Source: Maylandia zebra (Eukaryota > Chordata > Actinopteri > Cichliformes > Cichlidae). From it: 64,000 nucleotides of DNA. Below the pieces are notes generated by a model, which worked only from the letters and a program-made list of their open reading frames with translations, was not told the origin of the DNA and did not search any database. Position 1 is the stretch's first letter, and each line of letters starts with the position of its first letter. Shown in pieces: positions 3,101 through 54,959 of this stretch. The stretch is taken from contig NC_135176.1 in assembly GCF_041146795.1 (NCBI RefSeq), forward strand, positions 24,735,286 through 24,799,285, read 5' to 3'. The position numbers were made by a program, and so were the translations under genes.

Positions 3101-15729
<12,629 letters not shown>

Positions 15730-16103
15730 AGGATGAACCGAGGCACACCGGAGGAGCTTCCATTCCTCATCTCCACAGTTTCATCCAAGTTGTTGAAGAA
15801 TATTTTAGTCAAGATTTTTTGTAATGTGTCCAACTTTAGTTGCATTTTGTTTGTTTGCATTTTTGACCCCCCCCCCCCCCCCCCCCCCCACGCACGCACA
15901 CACGCACACACACACATATGTGTCCAATGATTTTTATACCATCAAACCAGCACAATGCTGCAGTGAACTATCCACAATATGTCTTTAAGTATAAGACCTG
16001 GTTTCATTAATAAGATGTTTTTAGTCACATTTATGTAGGAACACCACACCAACCATCATCTTTATGAAAGATCCCAAGAAAACAATGTTGCTAAGAAAAT
16101 AAA
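15730..16103 (+). other. DDX46 3' UTR with poly(A) signal
   Basis: Sequence after the TAG stop. It contains a C homopolymer of more than 20 bases running into a CA-rich microsatellite (about 15868-15917). An AATAAA hexamer at 16098-16103 is the likely polyadenylation signal, giving a UTR of about 390 nt. The window has no other good signal between the stop and the next promoter. Confidence 0.65.
15868..15917 (+). repeat. Poly(C)-(CA) microsatellite
   Basis: A run of more than 20 C residues is followed by CACGCACGCACACACGCACACACACACA. It lies in the DDX46 3' UTR. Such a tract is prone to length change and to sequencing or assembly error, so its exact length is unreliable. Confidence 0.9.
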
Positions 16104-16705: not shown

Positions 16706-18773
16706 GTACAGTAACGTTAGCGCTAACGCGGGTCTCCGGAGGGGCATTTAGATTCGTTATGCGGCTCAAATGCGAGCACATAAATCAGCTCTGTCCGCGG
16801 TCAGCTGCCATGTTGTAAACAGAGTAAACCAGTCTCTGTGTCTCTTAAAAAAAAAGCCCGTTATTCGGGCCAGGAACGAGGCTACGTTCAGCCCTCGGTG
16901 CTGCTCGTTAACGGAGAGCTGGAGGTTTTGTCTGAATGCAAAGATGCGGAATCCATGTGCATTTTGTTTTTTGTGAATGAATATTACTACTGACAGTGTA
17001 GCGTGTGTGATGGTGAAAGTCCACACCTCCCTGCGTCCCGTTTCCTCTGCAGAAAAGGCGACAGCAGCTGTGTGCACTCTTTACTTCACTCCATTTACAC
17101 TCTTCATTACTGTAATTAAAGTGTGCAAAGCAGCCAAATGCATTCAGTCTAACGCGGTTTTATGACCGGCGAGAGGAGAGGTCTTGCTCTAAGGCACTTC
17201 AGCACCACTTTGGTGAGGTCTATCCTTATTCTTAAGGTCGAAGCTGTTTATGGGACGTATGTAATCATATGCTGTTTGTTAAATTATGAAACAGCTTTTC
17301 ATGGTCGAGTTAACACGAGAAAGTCTGCGTGTAAACAAGCGAACTAGATGTGAACTTGAGTTTCTAAACAAAGCATTTTTCATCGAGATCTATAGTTTTT
17401 GTATTTTTTTTTTTGTTATTTCAATATTTCTAATAAGTTACTTTTAATTCTGTTTAGTTTCAGGGGATTTTCTTGTTTATTTTAATAGTTTCAGCACTTG
17501 TTTTTTTGTTGTTATATGAAGGGTATTTGCCTGGTTATATAGGTAGTAGTAGTAGTAGTAATAATAACAATAATGTTTTTTAACTTTTAGGGGTTGTTGT
17601 TGTTACATGAAGGGTGTGAATCCAAATTTCTAATTTGGTTTTAATTCTGTTTAGTTTCAGAGTGGATTTGCTTGTTTTTCTTGTTTACTTTTAGTTTAGT
17701 TTTGTATGTTTCCGTGCTAATTATTATTGAAGGCAGATTAGGAAGTTCAAAGCTGGTATTATAAAACAAGGACAACACTGTGTGAAGGCAGTTGACTCAC
17801 AGTCATTATAATAAAAACAAACAAACAAACAACCCAACAGATTAACCAATGCCTCCTCAGGCTGAAAATAAATAAAATAGCCCTTTATTGTCACTGTACA
17901 TGTAGAACTAAGTTATAAGTCCTCCATGCCAACTGTGCAGGAACAAAATATAAAGAGTAAGACAGCAGGAATAAATAAGAAACAAGAGAAATTGGAGAAC
18001 AAAGTGCTTAGAAGTAGTGCAAGTTAACTAAGACTAAGCATATTTACTCAATATTGTGGATTACTTTTGTAAGTCCATTATTGTTTCTGTTAGTTTGCCT
18101 TTCTTTTTGAGTCTACGTTTTATTTGAGGTCTGATTGTTGGGTCTTTATCTTATAGTACAAACACCATGAGACAACAGTTATTGTGTAGTTTGTTTGCTG
18201 TAATAACCTCGACTTCAGCACACAGCCACATTACAGTATGCTGCTGCTCCTTCTCTGCAGAGCAAAACAATCCTCAAGTCCTTTCTTCTGTTAAAATGGT
18301 TCAGATATAGCATCGTCTCCCACCTTCATGCACTTTGAAGTTTCCCCTTTCAGTGTGCAATGTGGTCATTGTTGCCCCTTGGTCATAGTAGATGCTTTCA
18401 GCCTTCTACTGTCAGCGTGGCAGTAATGAGCCCTTAATATTTAGCGCTGACACTAAATTTGAACTTTGACCAGCAGCACAAAAGTGAAGCTCACTTCAGA
18501 AATAAGCAGCACCCTTTCTTGACCTTTCTTATGAGAATAATCTGTTGGGATGGGATTAGACCCATCGTGTGTAGATCTGGATTAGACCAGATGATGCTTT
18601 CAGAATATTTCACTGAAGTCTTAGTGTTCCCATGTTTCTTGTCTTCATGCAAATATGGGTATGATCAGTTTCAACTGCAGAGTTGTTTTTTAACTTTAAC
18701 CTGACATGGCACTATCCAGAAAACATTAGTCCTGATGTTTGAGTGATGATGCATTATTTCCAACCCCCAACAG
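16706..18773 (+). other. C5orf24 first intron
   Basis: A 2.07 kb region between the probable exon-1 donor and the coding-exon acceptor. It contains a GTA/ATA trinucleotide run near 17543-17570. Near 17865-18030 is a reversed LINE tail with the phrase CTTTATTGTCACTGTACATG, typical of Rex1/CR1-like 3' ends. Nothing else was recognised. Confidence 0.45.
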
Positions 18774-18776
18774 AAG

Positions 18777-19400
18777 ATGATGCGCCAGGTGACAACCAGT
18801 GACTTCTGCATGAACAGCAGGCCGTCGTGCCTAGCAGAGGACAGCCACCACCCCACTGCTCACTTTGACCTGTGCACCTCACAGGCCAGCAAGTTCTACC
18901 CTCCTCCCCCTCCATCATCCCTCCAGATGACACTGGCTCCCATGGCCTTACCCACCCAGAGCCACAAGCCCATGGTGTGCCAGAGACAGGAAGTTCTTGG
19001 GGGTGACCCCCGCTCGTCTGGAAAGCTAGCAGGGTTAAAAAACACCAATCAAGCAACAGATGATGCCAAGAAGAAGAACAAGTCTGTCGGGAAGACGGGC
19101 AGACGTGGGAGGCCTTTGGGAACCACCAAGCTAGCTGGTTATAGAACCAGCACAGGGCGACCACTCGGCACCACCAGAGCTGCCGGGTTCAAGACGAGTC
19201 CTGGAAGGCCGCTCGGTACGACCAGAGCGGCGGGGTATAAGGTCAGCCCCGGGAGGCCTCCTGGCAGCATCAAGGGCCTCTCTCGCCTCAACAAACTGGT
19301 TCACAGTAGCACTTGCAGCGGAGCAGCTTTCCCCTATCCACTACCACACAAAGAAATCCTCTGTGAACCTTCCTGCAAAGAGAAGCCCGCTAATGAGTAA
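18777..19400 (+). CDS. C5orf24 homologue (UPF0461 family), 207 residues
   Basis: A single coding exon. The protein matches human C5orf24 in several places: the phrase HKPMVCQRQ at residues 63-71, the GRP repeats, the block AAGYKVSPGRPPGSIK, and the end AFPYP...KPANE. Residues 111-166 form four units that begin GRP at 111, 127, 143 and 159, an exact 16-residue period (GRPLGTTRAAGYKVSP type). The GRP cores with basic flanks resemble AT-hooks, so chromatin or DNA binding is an inference; the family has no established function that I know of. A proline run (PPPPP) lies at residues 42-46. The acceptor ends three bases before the ATG. Location next to DDX46 matches human synteny. Confidence 0.95.
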   Translation: MMRQVTTSDFCMNSRPSCLAEDSHHPTAHFDLCTSQASKFYPPPPPSSLQMTLAPMALPTQSHKPMVCQRQEVLGGDPRSSGKLAGLKNTNQATDDAKKKNKSVGKTGRRGRPLGTTKLAGYRTSTGRPLGTTRAAGFKTSPGRPLGTTRAAGYKVSPGRPPGSIKGLSRLNKLVHSSTCSGAAFPYPLPHKEILCEPSCKEKPANE

Positions 19401-28500: not shown

Positions 28501-29746
28501 ATATTTTAACCAAGATGGTGCCTTGTCTCTACATCACCCAGTTTTCTTCTAAATGGGACTGCAATCTTAAGAATTGTAAATGCTTCAAGAGCAGTTTACA
28601 TGTCTGATTCTTTTGGTGTAAGTGTAGCTTTTGTTAGTTTAAGGTGGTTAAACTGGCTTTGTTTTTGAAGTGTTTAAAAAATAGCTGGCAATAGTTCTAT
28701 TTAATGTTTTTATTAAATGTCACACCATCACACCACAATCTTAAGACGTCTTGCGGTCTACGGCTTAGGGTGGCTTGTATTCTATTACTTCGTATAAAGT
28801 AAACACTGCCCCCTAAGAGAACCTTTTAAAGGTAGGTGTGGTAAAACCAACTCTTTATGAACAGTGCCTTTTATTTCATTCTGACATTTAACCCTAGTTT
28901 CAATTGTCGATGTCGTACTGTTTTGTTAATCCTAATTGTTTTTGTTTGTTTATTTTTTGTGTGTTTTCTAACCTAAGGGTGTTTTGCTAACTGCTAAACA
29001 AGCTAAAGTGTAAAAAAAATTATTCGCTTTTCTTTTGTTTGTTTGTTATGTTTTTTTGTTTGTTTTTAAAAAAAAGAAATAGCACTGGGGTTAGTTCGTT
29101 AAAGTAATACAAATGCAGAAAAGATAAACAGATACATTCAACCTCCCTCCAGCTGCAAGTTTTCTCAGACTTTCTCATTTCACACCAAAGTTACAAAAAT
29201 GCATAAATAATTGTAACTTATTTAAGCTAGTTTTGTATGTCCACTTCCATGGTTAGAAACTGCTGCAAATCCAGTGTCAGTACTCTACAGTAGATTACTG
29301 TGGTCTAGAGTAGACTTTGTGCAGTTTTCTGTCTGTACACCTGAGGGCGGAAGTGTGTCTTTGTGAAACCTTAAACAATCATAGACGTGTTTATTTGATT
29401 TTCGTCGTTTCATTTCAACGCACGATACTGGTATTATAATTCTTTCATCTTGTAATTATCATATTATGAAAACAATTATAACGCCAAGAAAGTTATAAAA
29501 ATGAATTTAAGACGCTCCGTCTTAACGACCGCTGATTGGACTGCAGACGACCACGTGATTTTGAATCTCATTAACCGGCACGCGCTGACCGGCGTTTCAG
29601 AAACTAAAGTGTCGTTATATATGTGGCGCCGTTTATAAACTGAAACATGCCGACCATAGTTATATTGTGATTTTCGGAGGTAAAACGTCAGTAAAACATC
29701 GACCTGTCCTCTACCATTTGTTAGAAGGCGACTGTGTTCTTCATTG
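28501..29746. other. Spacer upstream of the U2 gene
   Basis: About 1.2 kb without a recognisable gene. T-rich runs occur near 28930-29070. An E-box CACGTG is at 29552-29557, about 250 bp before the U2 start. I see no canonical octamer of the distal sequence element. A 107-codon minus-strand frame at 29476-29799 overlaps the U2 promoter and is unlikely to be real. Confidence 0.5.
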
Positions 29747-29765
29747 TAACCATGAGTTAGAGTTG
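29747..29765 (+). promoter_or_regulatory. Proximal sequence element of the U2 gene
   Basis: TAACCATGAGTTAGAGTTG lies at -61 to -43 from the U2 start. It fits the vertebrate snRNA PSE pattern (YACCNTNANTNNAANNTG type) in place and sequence. There is no TATA box at -25, as expected for a Pol II snRNA gene. The three truncated U2 copies downstream lack this element. Confidence 0.65.
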
Positions 29766-29807
29766 CAGTAAGCAGAATGAGTCGTTTCTGTCGTGCCATA
29801 TGTGGGT

Positions 29808-29996
29808 ATCGCTTCTCGGCCTTTTGGCTAAGATCAAGTGTAGTATCTGTTCTTATCAGTTTAATATCTGATACGTCCCCTACCCGGGGACCATATATTA
29901 AATTGATTTTTGGAACAGGGAGATGGAATAGGGGCTTGCTCCGTCCACTCCACGCATCGACCTGGTATTGCAGTATTTCCAGGAACGGTGCACTCC
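29808..29996 (+). ncRNA. U2 spliceosomal snRNA, complete gene
   Basis: Begins ATCGCTTCTCGGCCTTTTGG, the invariant U2 start. The branch-site pairing element GTAGTA falls at nucleotides 33-38 of the RNA. The Sm site GATTTTTGG and the stem III/IV region through CCAGGAACGGTGCAC are present. Length is about 189 nt, as in vertebrates. The stem IIb segment reads GTCCCC-TACCCG-GGGAC where the human RNA has GTCCTC-TATCCG-AGGAC; the T-to-C and A-to-G changes are paired, so the stem is kept. With a PSE upstream, this copy could be expressed. Three further copies start at about nucleotide 38 and are listed as pseudogenes. Confidence 0.96.
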
Positions 29997-30003
29997 CTGA
30001 AGC

Positions 30004-30018
30004 TGTGAAAAAGAAGTG
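30004..30018 (+). terminator. Candidate snRNA 3' box
   Basis: TGTGAAAAAGAAGTG begins about 8 nt after the U2 end and roughly resembles the vertebrate 3' box GTTTN(0-3)AAARNNAGA. A second candidate, GTTTCTGTAAAGAAA at 30034-30048, fits the sequence better but sits farther away. Both recur behind each truncated U2 copy. Confidence 0.35.
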
Positions 30019-30103
30019 TAATTTGATTCAACAGTTTCTGTAAAGAAATTTGTTATACGTTAGATATATGCGTGCGTGTGGATATGTGGAGATTGCCTTC
30101 GTG

Positions 30104-30645
30104 CACCTACATAGGAAATTACCTGTAAGGACTACGATGTATGCACATAATTTGGGGAAGTTAAAAGAATGTCCGAGGGATAATTGCACAGAGGAAGAAA
30201 CGATTGAACACGTCCTATGGGGGTGCAAATATGCAAAAAAGGTATGGGCTGGAATGAAGAGGAGGTATAAGGGACTAGAGGCTTTGACATATGAGGAAAT
30301 AACTTATCTTAGGCCTAAGGATAAAAAGAAGGAGGAAAATAAAATACGTTGTATGTTGTTATCAATTACAAAACTTAAGATATGGAGGGCAAGACAGGGG
30401 TATATAAGGGGGGGGTATGAATGGAAAGAGATGGGAACAATAAAGGATATAGAGAGGGAATTTGAGGGGATATATCGGCATGAATTACAAAGATGGGGAA
30501 TAGACACGATTAAGGACAGGTGGAAGGATTACTATGAATGATGTAAAAGATGTTTTTGTGAAATATGAAAAGTATTTAATGGAATGTTGAGCAAATGGAA
30601 ATGTAAGATGGTGTTGTAAGTAAAAAGAAAAAAGAAAAAAAAAAA
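30104..30645 (+). mobile_element. Tx1-clade LINE 3' end in U2, copy 1
   Basis: Codes for the last ~140 residues of an ORF2-like protein, open across the junction with D. A CCHC-like motif (CPRDNCTEEETIEHVLWGCK) is followed by KVW and the end RWKDYYE. After the stop comes a short 3' UTR and an A-rich tail (AAAAAGAAAAAAG...) joined directly to U2 nucleotide 38. Tx1-clade elements of the Keno group are known to target U2 snRNA genes in fish, and the junction fits such a target; the Keno assignment is an inference. The 5' truncation is at the same base in all three copies. Confidence 0.8.
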
Positions 30646-30797
30646 ATCTGTTCTTATCAGTTTAATATCTGATACGTCCCCTACCCGGGGACCATATATT
30701 AAATTGATTTTTGGAACAGGGAGATGGAATAGGGGCTTGCTCCGTCCACTCCACGCATCGACCTGGTATTGCAGTATTTCCAGGAACGGTGCACTCC
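30646..30797 (+). pseudogene. Truncated U2 snRNA copy 2
   Basis: Starts at U2 nucleotide 38 (ATCTGTTCTTATCAG) right after a LINE A-rich tail and runs to the RNA 3' end. It matches the full gene throughout. The 5' stem-loop, branch-site pairing element and promoter are absent, so it cannot make U2 RNA. Confidence 0.93.
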
Positions 30798-30904
30798 CTG
30801 AAGCTGTGAAAAAGAAGTGTAATTTGATTCAACAGTTTCTGTAAAGAAATTTGTTATACGTTAGATATATGCGTGCGTGTGGATATGTGGACATTGCCTT
30901 CGTG

Positions 30905-31444
30905 CACCTACATAGGAAATTACCTGTAAGGACTACGATGTATGCACATAATTTGGGGAAGTTAAAAGAATGTCCGAGGGATAATTGCACAGAGGAAGAA
31001 ACGATTGAACACGTCCTATGGGGGTGCAAATATGCAAAAAAGGTATGGGCTGGAATGAAGAGGAGGTATAAGGGACTAGAGGCTTTGACATATGAGGAAA
31101 TAACTTATCTTAGGCCTAAGGATAAAAAGAAGGAGGAAAATAAAATACGTTGTATGTTGTTATCAATTACAAAACTTAAGATATGGAGGGCAAGACAGGG
31201 GTATATAAGGGGGGGGTATGAATGGAAAGAGATGGGAACAATAAAGGATATAGAGAGGGAATTTGAGGGGATATATCGGCATGAATTACAAAGATGGGGA
31301 ATAGACACGATTAAGGACAGGTGGAAGGATTACTATGAATGATGTAAAAGATGTTTTTGTGAAATATGAAAAGTATTTAATGGAATGTTGAGCAAATGGA
31401 AATGTAAGATGGTGTTGTAAGTAAAAAGAAAAAAGAAAAAAAAA
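30905..31444 (+). mobile_element. Tx1-clade LINE 3' end in U2, copy 2
   Basis: Same content and 5' truncation point as the copy at 30104. Beyond the tail I see no difference between the two protein-coding parts. The A-rich tail is two bases shorter. Near identity of the copies points to recent amplification of one insertion, not independent insertions. Confidence 0.8.
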
Positions 31445-31596
31445 ATCTGTTCTTATCAGTTTAATATCTGATACGTCCCCTACCCGGGGACCATATATTA
31501 AATTGATTTTTGGAACAGGGAGATGGAATAGGGGCTTGCTCCGTCCACTCCACGCATCGACCTGGTATTGCAGTATTTCCAGGAACGGTGCACTCC
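31445..31596 (+). pseudogene. Truncated U2 snRNA copy 3
   Basis: Second of the three promoterless U2 copies, again starting at nucleotide 38 immediately after a LINE tail. No sequence change from the full gene was noticed over its length. Confidence 0.93.
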
Positions 31597-31703
31597 CTGA
31601 AGCTGTGAAAAAGAAGTGTAATTTGATTCAACAGTTTCTGTAAAGAAATTTGTTATACGTTAGATATATGCGTGCGTGTGGATATGTGGACATTGCCTTC
31701 GTG

Positions 31704-32243
31704 CACCTACATAGGAAATTACCTGTAAGGACTACGATGTATGCACATAATTTGGGGAAGTTAAAAGAATGTCCGAGGGATAATTGCACAGAGGAAGAAA
31801 CGATTGAACACGTCCTATGGGGGTGCAAATATGCAAAAAAGGTATGGGCTGGAATGAAGAGGAGGTATAAGGGACTAGAGGCTTTGACATATGAGGAAAT
31901 AACTTATCTTAGGCCTAAGGATAAAAAGAAGGAGGAAAATAAAATACGTTGTATGTTGTTATCAATTACAAAACTTAAGATATGGAGGGCAAGACAGGGG
32001 TATATAAGGGGGGGGTATGAATGGAAAGAGATGGGAACAATAAAGGATATAGAGAGGGAATTTGAGGGGATATATCGGCATGAATTACAAAGATGGGGAA
32101 TAGACACGATTAAGGATAGGTGGAAGGATTATTATGAATGATGTAAAAGATGTTTTTGTGAAATATGAAAAGTATTCAATGGAATGTTGAGCAAATGGAA
32201 ATGTAAGATGGTGTTGTAAGTAAAAATAAAAAAGAAAAAAAAA
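31704..32243 (+). mobile_element. Tx1-clade LINE 3' end in U2, copy 3
   Basis: Last LINE unit of the array. It carries a few private changes near the end (GATAGG for GACAGG, ATTATTATG for ATTACTATG, TATTCAATGG for TATTTAATGG, AAAATAAAAAAG in the tail). The encoded end RWKDYYE is unchanged. Confidence 0.8.
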
Positions 32244-32395
32244 ATCTGTTCTTATCAGTTTAATATCTGATACGTCCCCTACCCGGGGACCATATATTAA
32301 ATTGATTTTTGGAACAGGGAGATGGAATAGGGGCTTGCTCCGTCCACTCCACGCATCGACCTGGTATTGCAGTATTTCCAGGAACGGTGCACTCC
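32244..32395 (+). pseudogene. Truncated U2 snRNA copy 4
   Basis: Last truncated U2. Its 3' flank continues to 32502 and then enters unique sequence. This shows where the ancestral U2 downstream flank resumes and defines the right edge of the duplicated segment. Confidence 0.93.
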
Positions 32396-32502
32396 CTGAA
32401 GCTGTGAAAAAGAAGTGTAATTTGATTCAACAGTTTCTGTAAAGAAATTTGTTATACGTTAGATATATGCGTGCGTGTGGATATGTGGACATTGCCTTCG
32501 TG

Positions 32503-33241
32503 TAATCTTCGAAGGTTAGTCAGGCTGAAATGTTGCGACTTAATATTTGTGAATGAGTTACATTTAACTATTACGAGAATTACTAAATCCTGCCACTTGG
32601 ACTGACACGTGGACACACACTTTCTATGGGAAATCAAAAAAAATATGTAGTTTTGAACTGCAGTTACATTATTCTGGCTCGAATCCTGCAGTTACCTCTG
32701 TTGTCCACTAGAGACCGATAGAAGTCTTTAAAAACCGGAGGCTGCCATCTACAAGGACTCATGTTGATTATAGGTTTAACTCTTCTCTTTCTCTACATAC
32801 TGCAGCTTTCTGTCCTCTGTGGCTGTAAATTACATCGTTTGAAAAAAAAAACCCCCACAACTTTTTCTTGGCTTCTTTAGCTAAAATCACCTGTATTGTC
32901 TGTTGTTTCCATTTGTGGATGGTTAATAGTGCAGAAGATTGTTTTTCTGTTTTCAGGATTACATGAAAACATTTTGGAACAGATCATTTTTGTATATAAT
33001 AAATCTTAGGATAGTATTGGTTTTGATGATTTATAAAACAGCTGTGTGCCGTAGCCCTGGTAGTGTGGATCCTTAGTGTGTAAAGAGTAGATAACTCATG
33101 TAATATGTGTGAATGAAAATCCATGGACTTTATAAGAGTCCTCCATTTACGGCTATGATCCTAACAAACAAGAATAATACGTTTCTTTCTCCTACCAATC
33201 TTCCTGTTTCCTAAAGGAACACACATACACAATATATATGC
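32503..33241. other. Spacer between the U2 array and tRNA-Leu
   Basis: Unique DNA that continues the ancestral 3' flank of the U2 gene. No coding frame, RNA gene or repeat was recognised. Confidence 0.5.
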
Positions 33242-33324
33242 GCCAGGATGGCCGAGTGGTTAAGGCGTTGGACTTAAGTTCCAATGAGCGCATGCTCTCG
33301 TGGGTTCAAACCCCACTCCTGGTA
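33242..33324 (+). tRNA. tRNA-Leu (anticodon TAA)
   Basis: An 83-nt class II tRNA without intron. Acceptor strands GCCAGGA and TCCTGGT pair with one G-T wobble. The A box is TGGCCGAGTGG and the anticodon arm is TTGGA-CTTAAGT-TCCAA with anticodon TAA. The long variable arm GAGC-GCAT-GCTC folds well. The B box is GGGTTCAAACC. All expected arms are present, so it looks functional. There is no TTTT run directly after it; the first T-stretch is only three bases. Confidence 0.93.
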
Positions 33325-33439
33325 TAATTTGGAGCCTCATGACTGGTAAACTGAAATGTATCTATGGGAGCAACAATGATCAATAGGAATTTGCTGTGAG
33401 CAATATCCCCCCCACCCAGTCACCCCCAAAAAAGCTGGG

Positions 33440-34150
33440 ATGTAAGACAAGAAAGACAAATGAGAGGTCTGTGCCAAGGTTGCCCCCTCTCAGTCTTACT
33501 GTACATGTTATATGTAGAACCGTTGGCTTGTGCAATTAGGGAAAGCCCAGACATAACAGGAATACAGTTACCGGGAGGAGAAACATTAAAAATTTAACAG
33601 TATGCAGACGACACAATGCTGTACCTGGCTGATGATAAAAGTGTAACAGAATCAATAAGAGTTATACAGGAGTTTTTGAAGGCTGCGGGGCCTCAAATAA
33701 ACAAGTATAAGTCAATGTATAAATACCTGGGAAGATGGGCGGGCGGGAGAGAGGCAATTTGTGAATATCAATTATGTGGAGGGCCATTGGAGGTCTTGGG
33801 TATTTCCTTTGGGAATACAGAGGGGGATGCTATCTTTAATTGGGGAAAGATTTTGAAGAAGATGCGTATAAAATTGGGGCTATGGAACAAGAGGAAGCTT
33901 ACCATTTTGGGAAAGGTGCTAGTTATCAAAGCTGATATCCTACCAGGCCTTCTCCACCTTGCTTACATCTTCCCAATTCCATGTGTGTTGAGGTTTATAT
34001 GAAAAATGTTTAAGTTTATGTGGGGAGGGATTATGAATATGTGAAAAGGGGGATGATGTACCAAGAGATAAGGTAGGGGGGAAGGAATGTGCCATGCATC
34101 CCTCTGAAGTTGGACATGATTTTTTGCAGTAATGTATGCAAATTGCTAAA
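33440..34150 (+). mobile_element. Decayed Tx1-clade LINE reverse-transcriptase fragment
   Basis: Translations show RT pieces in shifting frames: [16 protein letters not shown] near 33485-33530, the catalytic YADD at 33601-33612, then TMLYLADDKSV and ESIRVIQEFLKAAGPQINKYKS. Later come KLTILGKVLVIKADILPGLL and a degraded WGGIM region. This pattern is that of L1/Tx1-type ORF2. It could be the upstream part of the same family as the U2-linked copies, but no overlap allows a direct comparison. Frame changes show it is dead. Confidence 0.75.
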
Positions 34151-39680: not shown

Positions 39681-39730
39681 GAGACAAGAGCAGCTTTTAT
39701 CTGGGGAGACGTTACTTACATTGAGGAGAC

Positions 39731-41404
39731 ATGGCACAGCGAACGATTCAGCTGGATCAAGAAAAATTGAGCTGTTCCATCTGTCTGCAACTTTTAAAGC
39801 ATCCAGTCACTATTCCCTGTGGGCACAGCTACTGCATGACCTGTATCAAAAACTACTGGGATGAGAAGGAAACACACAGCTGCCCTCAGTGCAGAGAGAT
39901 TTTCACACCGCGGCCTGTTCTGGTGAAGAACACCATGTTAGCTGAGTTAGTGGAGGACCTAAAGAAAGTAGAACATCTGACAGCTTCACCTGATCATGCC
40001 TATCCTGGACCTGGAGATGTGGCCTGTTCTGGGAGGAAGCGGAAAGCCTCAAAGTCCTGCCTGGTGTGTATGGCCTCTTATTGTGAGCAGCACCTGCAGC
40101 CTCACTACAACGTAGCTCCAATAAAGAAACACAAACTCATCAAAGCCACTTCAAAGCTTCAGGAGAACATCTGCCCTCGCCACGATGAGGTGATGAAGAT
40201 CTTCTGCCGCACTGATCAGCAGTGTATCTGTTATCTCTGTTTAATGCATGAACACAAAGACCATGTCACAGTGTCAGCTGCAGCAGAAAGAGCTGAGAGG
40301 CAGAAAGGGCTTGGAAGAAATCGACAAAAATTTCTTCAAAGAGTTCAGGACGGAGAGAAAGATGTGAAGGCGCTTCATGAAAGAGTGGAGGCTATCAATC
40401 TTTCTGCTGATAAAGCTTTCAGAGAATGTGATAAGGCTTTCAAAGATTTGATCAGTCTCATTGAGAAAAAAAGCTCTGTAGGGAAGCAGAAGATCAGATC
40501 CAAGCAAAAAGCCGAACAGGACAGAGTCAAAGAGCTTCAGGAGAAAATAGAGCAGGAGATCAGAGATCTGAGGAGGAGAGACGCTGAACTGCAGCAGCTC
40601 TCACTGACAGAGGATCACCTCCATTTTCTGAAAAACTACTCCTCACTGTCACATCTGAGTGCATCTACAAACGTACCCACCTACAACAATCTTACTCTGC
40701 AGTACTTTGAGGATGTGACTGCATCTGTGTCACGGACCAGAGATAAAGTGAAGGCTCTTCTCAGTGATGAATGGCCAAAAATCTCAGTTGGAATGACCAA
40801 AGCAGATATTTTACTGCCTCAAGGAGAACCCAAAACCAGACACGACTTTTTGAAACATTCTTGTCAGATCACTCTCGATCCAAATACAGCACACACACTG
40901 TTGTCACTGAGTGACAGCAACAGAAAAGTAACACTGATGAGTAGAAACCAGTCATATCCAAGTCATCCAGACAAATTCCTTGAATGGTGGCAGGTCCTGA
41001 GCAGAGAGGGTCTGACTGGACGCTGTTACTGGGAGGTGAAGTGCAACGGGATGGTTGGAGTAGCTGTTGCATACAAGCATATCGGCCGTAGAGGGACCAG
41101 AGAGGAATGTGGATTTGGATTGAATGACAAATCCTGGTCATTAACAGTTTCAGGCAGCGGTTATGAATTCAAACACAACAACATTTCCACTCCCATCCCA
41201 GGCCCTCTGTCCTCCAGAATAGGAGTATATTTGGATCACAGGGCAGGAACTCTTTCTTTCTACAGCATCACTGAGACCATGAATCGTCTCCACAGAGTCC
41301 AGACCAGGTTCACTCAGCCTCTCTATGTTGGACTGTGGCTTCCACAAAGTGCTGGACACACTGCTGATGTGTGTGAGCTCAAGAAGAGAATAAACATAAA
41401 ATAG
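39731..41404 (+). CDS. TRIM E3 ligase, intact copy A, 557 residues
   Basis: Intronless gene of the fish TRIM16/finTRIM-like type. The C3HC4 RING has all ligands: C15, C18, C30, H32, C35, C38, C51, C54. B-box 1 follows at about 95-130 and B-box 2 (CPRHDEVMKIFCRTDQQCIC) at about 148-180. A long coiled coil spans about 185-310 and PRY-SPRY about 360-557. Such proteins are ubiquitin ligases; many fish members are induced by virus or interferon. B-box 1 here lacks the three residues DFC found in the paralogues (VACSGRKRK instead of VACDFCSGRKRK), losing a zinc ligand. The start is supported by the same ATG context as the other copies (GAGGAGACATGGC). Poly(A) signal AATAAA at 41820-41825. Confidence 0.92.
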   Translation: MAQRTIQLDQEKLSCSICLQLLKHPVTIPCGHSYCMTCIKNYWDEKETHSCPQCREIFTPRPVLVKNTMLAELVEDLKKVEHLTASPDHAYPGPGDVACSGRKRKASKSCLVCMASYCEQHLQPHYNVAPIKKHKLIKATSKLQENICPRHDEVMKIFCRTDQQCICYLCLMHEHKDHVTVSAAAERAERQKGLGRNRQKFLQRVQDGEKDVKALHERVEAINLSADKAFRECDKAFKDLISLIEKKSSVGKQKIRSKQKAEQDRVKELQEKIEQEIRDLRRRDAELQQLSLTEDHLHFLKNYSSLSHLSASTNVPTYNNLTLQYFEDVTASVSRTRDKVKALLSDEWPKISVGMTKADILLPQGEPKTRHDFLKHSCQITLDPNTAHTLLSLSDSNRKVTLMSRNQSYPSHPDKFLEWWQVLSREGLTGRCYWEVKCNGMVGVAVAYKHIGRRGTREECGFGLNDKSWSLTVSGSGYEFKHNNISTPIPGPLSSRIGVYLDHRAGTLSFYSITETMNRLHRVQTRFTQPLYVGLWLPQSAGHTADVCELKKRINIK

Positions 41405-44810: not shown

Positions 44811-45031
44811 ACCAATCTGAATACTTCCTTTCCTGGAATGAAGCACACCGTTTTAAGCTCCTCCCTGTTTATAGACTATTTACTTCAGACATTACTGATC
44901 TGCCGGTCATGTGATAAGATGCAAAACAAAAACATTTGCAAAGAATTTCCATCTGCTCAGGTCAGTGTCTCTGCATGAAAATGGCTTTTTTCTGGAAACA
45001 GAAAGTAAGACGTCGTTTGAGCGGAGGAGAC

Positions 45032-46447
45032 ATGGCGCAGCAAGTAATTGAGCTGTATCGAGAAAAACTGAGGTGTTCCATCTGTCTACAACTTCTAAAG
45101 GATCCAGTCACTATTCCCTGTGGGCACAGCTACTGCATGACCTGTATCGAAACTTGCTGGAATGAGAAGGAAACCCACAGCTGTCCTCAGTGCAGGCAGA
45201 CTTTCAAATCGCAGCCTGTCCTGGTGAAAAACATAATTTTAGGTGAGCTAGTGGAAGATCTAAAAGCAGGACTCACATCTGCTTCATCTGGTCATGCCTA
45301 TGCTGGACCTGGGGACATGGCCTGTGATTTCTGTTCTGGAAGGAAGCGGAAAGCCTCCAAGTCCTGCCTGGTGTGTATGGCCTCTTATTGTGAGCAGCAC
45401 CTTCGGCCTCACTACAACATAGCTCCATTAAAGAAACACAAGCTCATCAATGATGCTTCAAAGCTTCAGGAGAACATCTGCCCTCGCCATGATGAGGTGA
45501 TGAAGATCTTCTGCCGCACTGATCAGCAGTGTATCTGTTTTCTTTGTTTAATGGATGAACACAAAGACCATGTCACAGTGTCAGCTGCAGCAGAAAGAGC
45601 TGAGAAACAGAAAGATCTTGAAACAAATCGACAAAATGTCCAACAGAGAATCCAGGAAAGAGAGAAAGATGTGAAGGTGCTTCAAGAGGAAGTTGAGGCT
45701 ATAAGTCTTTCTACTGATAAAGCTTTGAGGCAAAGTGCGAAGATGTTCAAAGATTTGATCAGTCTCATTGAGAAAAAAAGCTCTGAGGTGAAGCAGAAGA
45801 TCAGATCCAAGCAAAAATGTGAACAGAACAGAGTCAAAGAGCTTCAGGAGAAAATAGAGCAGGAGATCAGAGATCTGAGGAGGAGAGACGCTGAACTGCA
45901 GCAGCTCTCACTGACAGAGGATCACCTCCATTTTCTGAAAAACTACTCCTCACTGTCACATCTGAGTGCATCTACAAACGTACCCACCTACAACAATCTT
46001 ACTCTGCAGTACTTTGATGATGTGACTGCATCTGTGTCACGGACCAGAGATAAAGTGAAGGCTCTTCTCAGTGATGAATGGCCAAAAATCTCAGTTGGAA
46101 CGACCAAAGCAGATATTTTACTGCCTCAAGGAGAACCCAAAACCAGACACGACTTTTTGAAACATTCTTGTCAGATCACTCTCGATCCAAATACAGCACA
46201 CACACTGATGTCACTAAGTGACAGCAACAGAAAAGTAACACTGATGAGTAGAAACCAGTCATATCCAAGTCATCCAGACAAATTCCTTGAATGGTGGCAG
46301 GTCCTGAGCAGAGAGGGTCTGACTGGACGCTGTTACTGGGAGGTGAAGTGCAACGGGACTGTTGGAGTAGCTGTTGCATACAAGGATATCGGCCGTAGAG
46401 GGACCAGAGAGGAATGTGGATTTGGATTGAATGACAAATCCTGGTAA
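45032..46447 (+). CDS. TRIM E3 ligase copy B, truncated in SPRY
   Basis: Starts MAQQVIELYREKLRCSICLQ at the ATG equivalent to the other copies; an in-frame upstream ATG at 44936 is outside the conserved start. RING, both B-boxes (with CDFC present) and the coiled coil are intact. In the SPRY domain the codon TCA after GLNDKSW is TAA, so the last 88 residues are not made. Sequence homologous to them continues without further breaks to 46711. The protein would keep ligase and oligomerisation parts and lose half of the target-binding domain. It may be a young pseudogene or a natural truncated form. Poly(A) signal AATAAA at 47137-47142. Confidence 0.88.
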   Translation: MAQQVIELYREKLRCSICLQLLKDPVTIPCGHSYCMTCIETCWNEKETHSCPQCRQTFKSQPVLVKNIILGELVEDLKAGLTSASSGHAYAGPGDMACDFCSGRKRKASKSCLVCMASYCEQHLRPHYNIAPLKKHKLINDASKLQENICPRHDEVMKIFCRTDQQCICFLCLMDEHKDHVTVSAAAERAEKQKDLETNRQNVQQRIQEREKDVKVLQEEVEAISLSTDKALRQSAKMFKDLISLIEKKSSEVKQKIRSKQKCEQNRVKELQEKIEQEIRDLRRRDAELQQLSLTEDHLHFLKNYSSLSHLSASTNVPTYNNLTLQYFDDVTASVSRTRDKVKALLSDEWPKISVGTTKADILLPQGEPKTRHDFLKHSCQITLDPNTAHTLMSLSDSNRKVTLMSRNQSYPSHPDKFLEWWQVLSREGLTGRCYWEVKCNGTVGVAVAYKDIGRRGTREECGFGLNDKSW

Positions 46448-52658: not shown

Positions 52659-53276
52659 AGTAAAATAGCAAAAACTACTATAAAAACTAATTGACTGCCA
52701 TTATTCATATGTGGTGTCTGGTAAAATGAGCTCAGGACAAAGCACAAAATATATTTAAAGGTCCTTTATTATTCTTTGTTATTCTGAACAAATTGAATTC
52801 TTAAAAAAAACAATTAAAACCTTACAGTGAAAATTATCCTCTATATGAGTCCATCAACAGTTAGAGTGGGGTGGTTTCCTGTTTAAATAAAAATACATAA
52901 CTCACATTAACTAGCAGAAAACTCACAACCCTTATACTTATTAGATAGAAAATATACACAATACCCACTAACAAATGCACAGCTGAAATGGTGAGAACAG
53001 TACTGTATCAAATTACAAGACCAGTCTGTCTAGGCCCTTTCCTGGAATAAAGCACACGTGTCTAAGCCCCACTCAGTTTATATACTGCTCACTCAGACAT
53101 TAGTCACACCCTACGCTCAGGTCAGTGTCTACATCAAAGAAACGAAAGCAGCTTTTATCTGGTAACTGAAAGTGAGATGTCACAGACTTCCCTCAAAAGG
53201 ACCTTGAGTTCAAATTTCAGTGCATATTTGCATCCGGTAAAAGAAAGGAAATCTTTTACAGTCGTGGTGAGGAGAC
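52659..53276. other. Spacer and promoter region of TRIM copy C
   Basis: 52659-52880 matches 39105-39260. 53030-53160 matches the proximal promoters of copies A and B (CCTGGAATAAAGCACAC, CAGGTCAGTGTCT). The part that should hold the ISRE is replaced by unrelated AT-rich sequence. An extra segment, 53175-53260, lies between the promoter and the ATG. Confidence 0.6.
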
Positions 53277-54959
53277 ATGGCGCAGCAACTGATTCAGCTG
53301 GATCAAGACAAACTGAGCTGTTCCATCTGTCTGCAGCTTCTAAAGGATCCAGTCACTATTCCCTGTGGGCACAACTACTGCATGGACTGCATCAGAAAGT
53401 GCTGGGATGAGAAGGAAGTACACAGCTGCCCTCAGTGCAGGCAGATTTTCACACTGAAACCTGACCTGGTGAAAAACAGCATGCTTGCTGAGTTAGTGGA
53501 AGACGTAAAGAAAGCAGGACTTCCAGCTGCTTCACCTGATCATGCCTTTGCTGGACCTGGAGATGTGGCCTGTGATTTCTGTTCTGTGAGGAAGCGGAAA
53601 GCCTCAAAGTCCTGCCTGGTGTGTATGGCCTCTTATTGTGAGCAGCACCTGCAGCCTCACTACAACGTAGCTCCAATAAAGAAACACAAACTCATCAAAG
53701 CCACTTCAAAGCTTCAGGAGAACATCTGCCCTCGCCACGATGAGGTGATGAAGATCTTCTGCCGCACTGATCAGCAGTGTATCTGTTATCTCTGTTTAAT
53801 GGATGAACACAAAGACCATGTCACAGTGTCAGCTGCAGCAGAAAGAGCTGAGAGGCAGAAAGGGCTTGGAAGAAATCGACAAAAATTTCTTCAAAGAGTT
53901 CAGGACGGAGAGAAAGATGTGAAGGCGCTTCATGAAAGAGTGGAGGCTATCAATCTTTCTGCTGATAAAGCGTTAATGCAAACTGAGAAGATGTTCAAAG
54001 ACTTGATCAGTCTTATTCAGAAAAAAAGCTCTGAGGTGAAGCAGAAGATCAGGTCCAAGCAAACATTTGAACAGAACAGAGTCAAAGAGCTTCAGGAGAA
54101 AATAGAGCAGGAGATCAGAGATCTGAGGAGGAGAGACGCTGAACTGCAGCAGCTCTCACTGACAGAGGATCACCTCCATTTTCTGAAAAACTACTCCTCA
54201 CTGTCACATCTGAGTGCATCTACAAACGTACCCACCTACAACAATGTTACTCTGCAGTACTTTGATGATGTGACTGCATCTGTGTCACGGACCAGAGATA
54301 AAGTGAAGGCTCTTCTCAGTGATGAATGGCCAAAAATCTCAGTTGGAACGACCAAAGCAGATATTTTACTGCCTCAAGGAGAACCCAAAACCAGACACGA
54401 CTTTTTGAAACATTCTTGTCAGATCACTCTCGATCCAAATACAGCACACACACTGTTGTCACTGAGTGACAGCAACAGAAAAGTAACACTGATGAGTAGA
54501 AACCAGTCATATCCAAGTCATCCAGACAAATTCCTTGATTGCCGGCAGGTCCTGAGCAGAGAGGGTCTGACTGGACACTGTTACTGGGAGGTGAAGTGCA
54601 ACGGGACTGTTGGAGTAGCTGTTGCATACAAGGATATTGGCCGTAGAGGGACCAGAGAGGAATGTGGATTTGGATTGAATGACAAATCCTGGTCATTAAC
54701 AGTTTCAGGCAGCGGTTATGAATTCAAACACAACAATATTCCCACTCCCATCTCAGGCCCCCTGTCCTCCAGAATAGGAGTATATTTGGATCACAGGGCA
54801 GGAACTCTTTCTTTCTACAGCATCACTGAGACCATGAATCTCCTCCACAGAGTCCAGACCAGGTTCACTCAGCCTCTCTATGTTGGACTGTGGCTTCCAC
54901 AAAGTGCTGGACACACTGCTGAGGTGTGTGAGCTCAAGAAGAGAATAAACATAAAATAG
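53277..54959 (+). CDS. TRIM E3 ligase, intact copy C, 560 residues
   Basis: Complete reading frame with RING (MAQQLIQLDQDKLSCSICLQ, all C3HC4 ligands), B-box 1 with CDFC, B-box 2, coiled coil and full PRY-SPRY ending KKRINIK. In SPRY the phrase LEWWQVLS of the other copies is LDCRQVLS, and GRCYWEV is GHCYWEV. From B-box 1 to mid coiled coil it is almost identical to copy A (QKGLGRNRQKFLQRVQDGEK), then differs (LMQTEKMFKD for FRECDKAFKD), then is again nearly identical to both A and B. Likely function as for copy A. Poly(A) signal AATAAA at 55667-55672. Confidence 0.92.
   Translation: MAQQLIQLDQDKLSCSICLQLLKDPVTIPCGHNYCMDCIRKCWDEKEVHSCPQCRQIFTLKPDLVKNSMLAELVEDVKKAGLPAASPDHAFAGPGDVACDFCSVRKRKASKSCLVCMASYCEQHLQPHYNVAPIKKHKLIKATSKLQENICPRHDEVMKIFCRTDQQCICYLCLMDEHKDHVTVSAAAERAERQKGLGRNRQKFLQRVQDGEKDVKALHERVEAINLSADKALMQTEKMFKDLISLIQKKSSEVKQKIRSKQTFEQNRVKELQEKIEQEIRDLRRRDAELQQLSLTEDHLHFLKNYSSLSHLSASTNVPTYNNVTLQYFDDVTASVSRTRDKVKALLSDEWPKISVGTTKADILLPQGEPKTRHDFLKHSCQITLDPNTAHTLLSLSDSNRKVTLMSRNQSYPSHPDKFLDCRQVLSREGLTGHCYWEVKCNGTVGVAVAYKDIGRRGTREECGFGLNDKSWSLTVSGSGYEFKHNNIPTPISGPLSSRIGVYLDHRAGTLSFYSITETMNLLHRVQTRFTQPLYVGLWLPQSAGHTAEVCELKKRINIK

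Follow-up and report, generated by a model that had tools for sequence, protein, structure and literature searches.

The stretch of DNA analysed here (the window) comprises 64,000 bp of Maylandia zebra, C10:24735286-24799285 of a 962-Mb assembly in 63 contigs, and this one assembly provided the whole evidence base. The window contains a complete U2 snRNA gene and an array in which head-to-tail copies of a LINE 3' end are separated by an identical piece of the target (C10:24765093-24767787; Table 1). Three more U2 matches were found in the window (RF00004, 118.0-118.4 bits each), all identical to the complete U2 from nt 38 onward. The array begins with the U2 head and continues in the order T1-L1-T2-L2-T3-L3-T4, where T is a 259-bp repeat made up of U2 nt 38-191 (154 bp) and 105 bp of 3' flank, and L is the last 540-542 bp of a LINE assigned below to Keno (542, 540, and 540 bp in the three copies). 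The original prediction had described a complete U2 gene followed by three units of about 800 bp, each joining a LINE 3' end to a U2 copy without its first 37 nt. The start-to-start spacing of 801, 799, and 799 bp and the exact boundaries agree with this description, and the predicted limits (29808..32502) were exact to the base, the last being the end of T4. The 105 bp of U2 3' flank within the repeated target piece go beyond that description, and the term "satellite-like" was too strong for the three units at C10, as satellite DNA consists of long arrays of many units.

Table 1. Features of the U2/LINE array and its surroundings, in window positions
Feature	Position	Strand	Remarks
U2 promoter region	29678..29807	+	0 and 1 differences in 129 aligned bases relative to two intact C15 U2 genes
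Complete U2 snRNA gene, 191 nt	29808..29998	+	Rfam RF00004, 193.7 bits, model positions 1-192
U2 head, nt 1-37, single in the array	29808..29844	+	exact boundaries
T1: U2 nt 38-191 and 105 bp of 3' flank	29845..30103	+	
T1 private G at position 247			C in T2-T4 and in the compared C15 copies
L1: last 145 ORF2 codons, 3' UTR, and A-rich tail of Keno	30104..30645	+	
L1 alleles			C429 T474 G524
T2: headless U2 and flank	30646..30904	+	
L2: as L1, 2 A's shorter	30905..31444	+	
T3: headless U2 and flank	31445..31703	+	
L3: Keno 3' end	31704..32243	+	alleles T414 T429 C474 T524
T4: headless U2 and flank, final copy	32244..32502	+	
Native downstream flank	32503..33604	+	directly continues T in C15 repeats
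Decayed fragment resembling U2 nt 6-54	32865..32914	+	local alignment score

Repeats of the same kind were nearly identical to each other. T2, T3, and T4 have the same sequence, from which T1 departs at 1 of 259 positions. L1 and L2 are the same apart from the length of the A-run, and L3 differs from L2 at four positions (414, 429, 474, and 524). The single 5' truncation point claimed for the LINE copies held, with L1, L2, and L3 sharing one 5' end. An 18-base pattern spanning this 5' joint had three matches in the 962-Mb assembly, all in the window. A scan for the joint in the viral_contigs and genome_contigs collections gave 0 matches, which carries little weight, as these collections hold no animal genomes as such.

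Several other features lie near the array. Read by eye, these include what we take to be DDX46-like exons, a C5orf24-like frame, and three long TRIM-like frames, and the gene-like stretches noted in this way span 5117-16000, 18750-19400, 39725-41404, 44918-46447, and 53271-54959. Downstream of the array, a tRNA-Leu (33242-33324) is followed by an old LINE reverse transcriptase fragment (33456-34138) that is about 65% identical to sequence inside C14 Keno copies. The element Dewa is described as residing in the tRNA-Leu spacer of zebrafish (PMC3706591), and the fragment could be a Dewa relic.

By sequence comparison, L is the 3' end of the U2-specific LINE Keno. L closes a LINE ORF2 frame, and its match to zf-RVT (23.3 bits) falls under the Pfam cut-off of 27.5 bits; the window copies are too short to contain AP endonuclease or reverse transcriptase (RT) domains. 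C14 and C15 both have copies more than 97% identical to L; these lie within U2 sequence, next to it, or in head-to-tail arrangement with further Keno copies. One C14 copy, 99.4% identical to the window over the tail, has open frames with an AP endonuclease (PF03372, 1.3e-9), an RT (RVT_1, 1.5e-32), and a zinc-knuckle ORF1 that matches ZCCHC3 RNA-binding domains, and the C-terminus of its ORF2 reads, by eye, the same as the window tail. Among relatives with solved structures, the nearest were L1 ORF2 proteins (best 3.7e-61), with R2 far behind (best 3.4e-17). In all three window copies, the LINE 3' end is joined to U2 nt 38, and a joint at U2 nt 37/38 is the Keno site given in the published accounts (PMC6136364, PMC4640811), in keeping with the predicted U2-targeting LINE. 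The Tx1-clade placement would rest on this Keno match. Utopia was ruled out as the element, the 99.4% copy having an AP endonuclease and not a restriction-like one. We also observed a Keno-like copy of about 1.1 kb (C14:9682881-9683989, locus L045) that has both the Keno 5' start and 3' end and looks internally deleted. At seven loci (L054, L056, L057, L059, L060, L066, and L067), other A-rich element tails end exactly at U2 nt 38, and use of this site may extend beyond one element family or subfamily.

Uninterrupted U2 repeats on C15, in an array around 12.29-12.74 Mb, provide an empty site for comparison. These repeats run from promoter through head, body, and flank to downstream sequence, and the 1757-bp repeat matches window 29451-33604 at 95-97% identity once an extra 2399 bp of the window are left out. 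Homology between C10 and C15 extends upstream to about 28494 and, at the lower edge of the fetched part of the C15 array, stops at window 33415. The order in the empty site implies that T4 followed by 32503 onward is native and that each T-L joint is the inserted one; every L is therefore flanked by two copies of a 259-bp duplicated target. The duplication leaves the promoter, nt 1-191, and the 3' flank complete upstream, and the downstream U2 copies have neither head nor promoter. We take a putative proximal sequence element to lie near -55 in the promoter region. Given the complete front gene, the array would most likely be near-neutral.

Other insertions at this site carried much shorter duplications. 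At ordinary insertions in the fetched loci, ATCTGTTCTTATCAG (plus T) stood between the U2 nt 1-37 head and the insert in seven of seven cases. We surveyed this motif in all fetched loci minus the window's own (L001-L003, L024), and at 25 of 75 distinct places the sequence after it was not U2 body. The motif followed a U2 head at 7 of these places, an A-rich tail at 17, and a headless A-run joint at one; 16 of the insertions started with Keno 5' sequence as defined here, and nine with other sequence. All 25 of these 5' joints had duplications of 15-16 bp, although the survey starts from a short motif and by design sees only short duplications, being blind to long ones. The window copies, with 259 bp, do not have the short duplication of other Keno copies. 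At their 5' joint there is a 2-bp TG match between longer Keno copies (..GGATG/CACC) and the target (..TTCGTG). As a separate observation, two insertions about 3.2 kb apart on C15 (12454704 and 12457877; L012 and L058) begin identically beyond the target motif; one is preceded by a Keno tail and the other by a headless A-run, and this pair is perhaps another tandemly duplicated truncated Keno.

The decayed U2-like fragment downstream of the array scored 22 in local alignment, compared with a mean of 9.7 and a maximum of 17 in 500 shuffles, and lies about 653 bp after the U2 start with the insert excluded. Its end lies close to the point at which an ordinary Keno target duplication would stop, and it is perhaps an ancient disrupted U2.

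Allele comparisons indicated that the array did not grow from one LINE alone and that a second Keno sublineage contributed. We aligned L1-L3 with 20 other Keno tails that were at least 95% identical along almost their entire length, dropping duplicate rows and copies of a 70-77% subfamily. At positions 429, 474, and 524, L1 and L2 have C, T, and G, and L3 has T, C, and T. The other 20 copies are polymorphic at these positions (429, T in 16 and C in 4; 474, C in 13 and T in 7; 524, T in 10, G in 7, and A in 3), and all have C at 414. By exact pattern across the genome, the C429 form occurs in the two window copies and four others, the T429 form occurs 16 times, and the form with both T414 and T429 is found in L3 only. 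Over positions 1-524 with gaps ignored, L1 and L3 are four differences apart, and each is a single difference from a copy on another contig (L1 from C15_12303059, L3 from C14_9545884). Three of the four L3 differences represent standing Keno alleles, which suggests two or more contributing Keno templates. By a crude binomial, the probability that three or more of the four differences would fall on standing alleles by chance is about 1e-5. Clustering of the differences within L3 is in itself weak (p 0.03), positions 1-413 of L do not discriminate between sources, and position 524, in an A-rich tract with three alleles, may be recurrent. Candidate routes for the second source are interlocus gene conversion, completion of a new cDNA by copying a resident unit, and re-insertion of Keno into a regenerated gene with a later unequal crossover within the 3' part that the copies share.

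The 105-bp flank inside T also stands out, with 13 of 105 sites (about 12%) different from C15 compared with about 2% around it. This divergence suggests that a segment of T may derive from a different U2 locus. A 205-bp stretch 3' of U2 (window 32398-32602) has 18 differences from one C15 copy (L035), nine of them G/C exchanges, compared with 31 of 1805 sites, three of them G/C exchanges, in the remaining aligned repeat (Fisher, p 0.004 for type and 5e-7 for rate). The sole difference among the T copies within the array is also C to G, and lies in T1, the only copy with a promoter. This 3'-flank pattern looks like transcription-linked mutagenesis at the U2 3' end, with import from another locus as the alternative. 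In human snRNA genes, variants are reported to be enriched in R-loop regions (PMC12165836).

Headless U2 units on C15 constitute a second, independent case. There, headless U2 bodies follow intact genes, mostly at a spacing of 654-662 bp, and the joint, ..TTTTTAGCTAAAA(A)n/ATCTGTTC, is the Keno nick site with an A-run alone. By pattern, we found 48 such joints on C15, of which one (L058) continues into a LINE insertion, and six more with longer or variant A-runs among 20 sampled regions; the remaining sampled sites had LINE or A-rich tails, some not assigned to a kind. The number of headless units between successive intact genes was 0, 1, 1, 6, 3, 2, 3, 3, 1, 1, and 2 in the 11 resolved intervals. 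Intervals with unexplained gaps were excluded, one of which has eight units in a row and then a 2413-bp gap. This range of 0-6 units is as unequal exchange predicts, in line with the original claim that LINE and target were amplified together. A few C15 units are spaced 1146-1168 bp apart or, beside LINE tails, about 670 bp. At L026, a block of about 480 bp (771-1251) interrupts the U2 downstream flank, and the same cause may underlie the 1146-1168-bp spacings elsewhere. The C15 A-run joint falls within the decayed U2 5' fragment, which may have guided it. The C15 unit arose in one of two ways, each of which requires a Keno nick or insertion: a poly(A)-only insertion that duplicated about 645 bp, or a deletion that ran into a Keno tail. 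Unequal crossover between U2 and the decayed fragment was ruled out for C15, as the joint lacks U2 nt 27-37 and the A-run ends exactly at nt 38.

The original prediction had proposed a genome search for the junction of U2 nt 38 with the LINE tail, and we found 91 exact A-run/nt 38 joints (3 on C10, 8 on C14, and 80 on C15). Exact intact stretches of nt 29-66 numbered 25 (1 on C10, 5 on C14, and 19 on C15), and by these exact joints, A-run-joined U2 copies outnumber intact ones. Of 50172 RF00004 candidates, 46 were scored, giving at least 28 copies with 176 bits or more and at least 18, on C15, with 146-148 bits. Headless units are more numerous on C15 than on C10, but are interspersed with genes.

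We consider the probable origin of the C10 array to be an aberrant, retrotransposition-linked 259-bp tandem duplication followed by exchange, with a second Keno source. A Keno RNP would have nicked the bottom strand at U2 nt 37/38 and reverse-transcribed the last 541 nt of its own RNA; the site and the joint are observed, and we infer the enzymology from target-primed reverse transcription. The cDNA end would then have been joined, at the TG match, to a 3' end 259 bp downstream, past U2, instead of about 16 bp away. Such a distant joint would place a complete U2 with its promoter upstream and a headless U2 downstream, the structure that we observed. The T-L unit would have become three by homologous exchange between the long repeats, as suggested by repeat identity and by differences in unit number within the analogous C15 array. 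While the array was growing, the 3' part of L1 and L2, or that of L3, would have come from a second Keno sublineage. A model for L1 in tumours has the cDNA join a downstream break on the sister chromatid and so produce a tandem duplication (PMC7058536), and target-primed reverse transcription with a distant 5' joint would be the best single-step account of the first unit. The array may instead have grown by retrotransposition-primed copying, in which a Keno nick and new Keno cDNA are completed from a resident L-T unit, although we regard this as rather unlikely. If true, each round would yield one more unit in which a new 3' end is combined with the old truncation point, the front gene would stay intact, and the LINE would amplify part of its target gene without destroying the gene itself. 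A deletion is similarly doubtful: given two tandem U2 genes on C10 with an ordinary Keno in the second, a loss of sequence that starts in the 3' flank of the first gene and ends inside the Keno body would give U2-T-L-T, later multiplied. The final structure would be identical, so that surviving structure fits either reading; the TG match, the tandem U2 genes with Keno that do occur on C15, and an A-run joint at GCTAAAA that could be a deletion into a Keno tail are all compatible with it. However, exact patterns located a single intact head-body joint and three A-run/nt 38 joints on C10, all in the window, and only one C10 place was among the 46 scored RF00004 candidates. The deletion would need an extra U2 unit that left no trace, although exact patterns would miss a diverged C10 U2.

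Three further readings are less likely. Plain clonal amplification of a single insertion, with the L3 differences as later point mutations, would explain the common truncation and the identity of T2-T4 and of L1 with L2, but is improbable given that L3 has standing alleles at three of its four differing positions and that L1 and L3 each resemble a copy on another chromosome more closely than they resemble one another. The original claim of one insertion amplified with its target, not three insertions, was right in that the insertions are not independent and that LINE and target were amplified together, but a clonal origin of the LINE copies from a single insertion was not supported. False expansion of one unit in the assembly is very unlikely: L1 is almost identical to L2, but the window lies within a 35-Mb contig, T1, L1, L2, and L3 can be told apart, and the L3 form with T414 and T429 is, by exact pattern, found only here. 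Three (or two) fully independent Keno insertions at one site would account for the differing 3' alleles, and a LINE did enter at least one headless site (C15:12457877), producing the ordinary 15-16-bp duplication. We rejected this reading, the least probable of all, as it requires an identical truncation and an identical 259-bp duplication every time, whereas the 25 other joints, in a survey that sees only short duplications, show 15-16 bp, and the window joint pattern is absent from the remaining genome.

An exceptionally long target duplication is reported for R9 of rotifers (Gladyshev and Arkhipova, 2009), where the length is, by the title of that study, a property of the element, whereas here it is an exception within Keno. 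Compared with Keno as known, the window copies share the 3' end precisely at U2 nt 37/38, the A-rich tail, and, through the close copy, the AP endonuclease and RT, but differ in the 259-bp duplication in place of 15-16 bp and in forming a tandem unit with the target. Keno insertion is described, in the account given in PMC6136364, as destroying the target. The R1 arrays in Drosophila 28S genes likewise alternate LINE and target pieces, and those of D. melanogaster are interpreted, in the part of the report concerned with them, as amplification of an original unique event (PMC2718515). In R1 arrays the target piece is 14 bp or a short rearrangement, whereas here it is most of a gene and the front gene is complete. 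The window array works like R1 tandem arrays without being one of them, as element and target differ. The tumour L1 duplications share a LINE cDNA joined to a distant downstream break, with the LINE at the joint, but the example presented is somatic, spans 22.6 Mb, has no fixed gene site, and is not multiplied (PMC7058536). In Phytophthora, disrupted U2 copies without the first 38 nt lie beside the 3' end of the LINE Utopia, as in the window; Utopia has a restriction-like endonuclease and the close copy of the window Keno an AP endonuclease, and no composite unit with one common truncation appears in the sections of that report on U2 (PMC4640811).

Tandem arrangement of a site-specific LINE with its target is already known, and what is new here is the long duplication that restores the gene, together with the indicated two-source array. 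In the portions of the literature covered by our search, neither a composite U2/Keno unit nor long target duplications made by Keno were described. This aberrant type of insertion leaves a complete gene together with headless copies that are able to expand. For Utopia, intact U2 genes and not fragments of nt 1-38 are reported upstream of insertions, and the authors, in the sections cited, give no full explanation (PMC4640811). Our results offer a testable answer to this puzzle, and by analogy the same mechanism may operate in Phytophthora Utopia. Within one genome, composite repeats have been built twice by a LINE, its target gene, and recombination.
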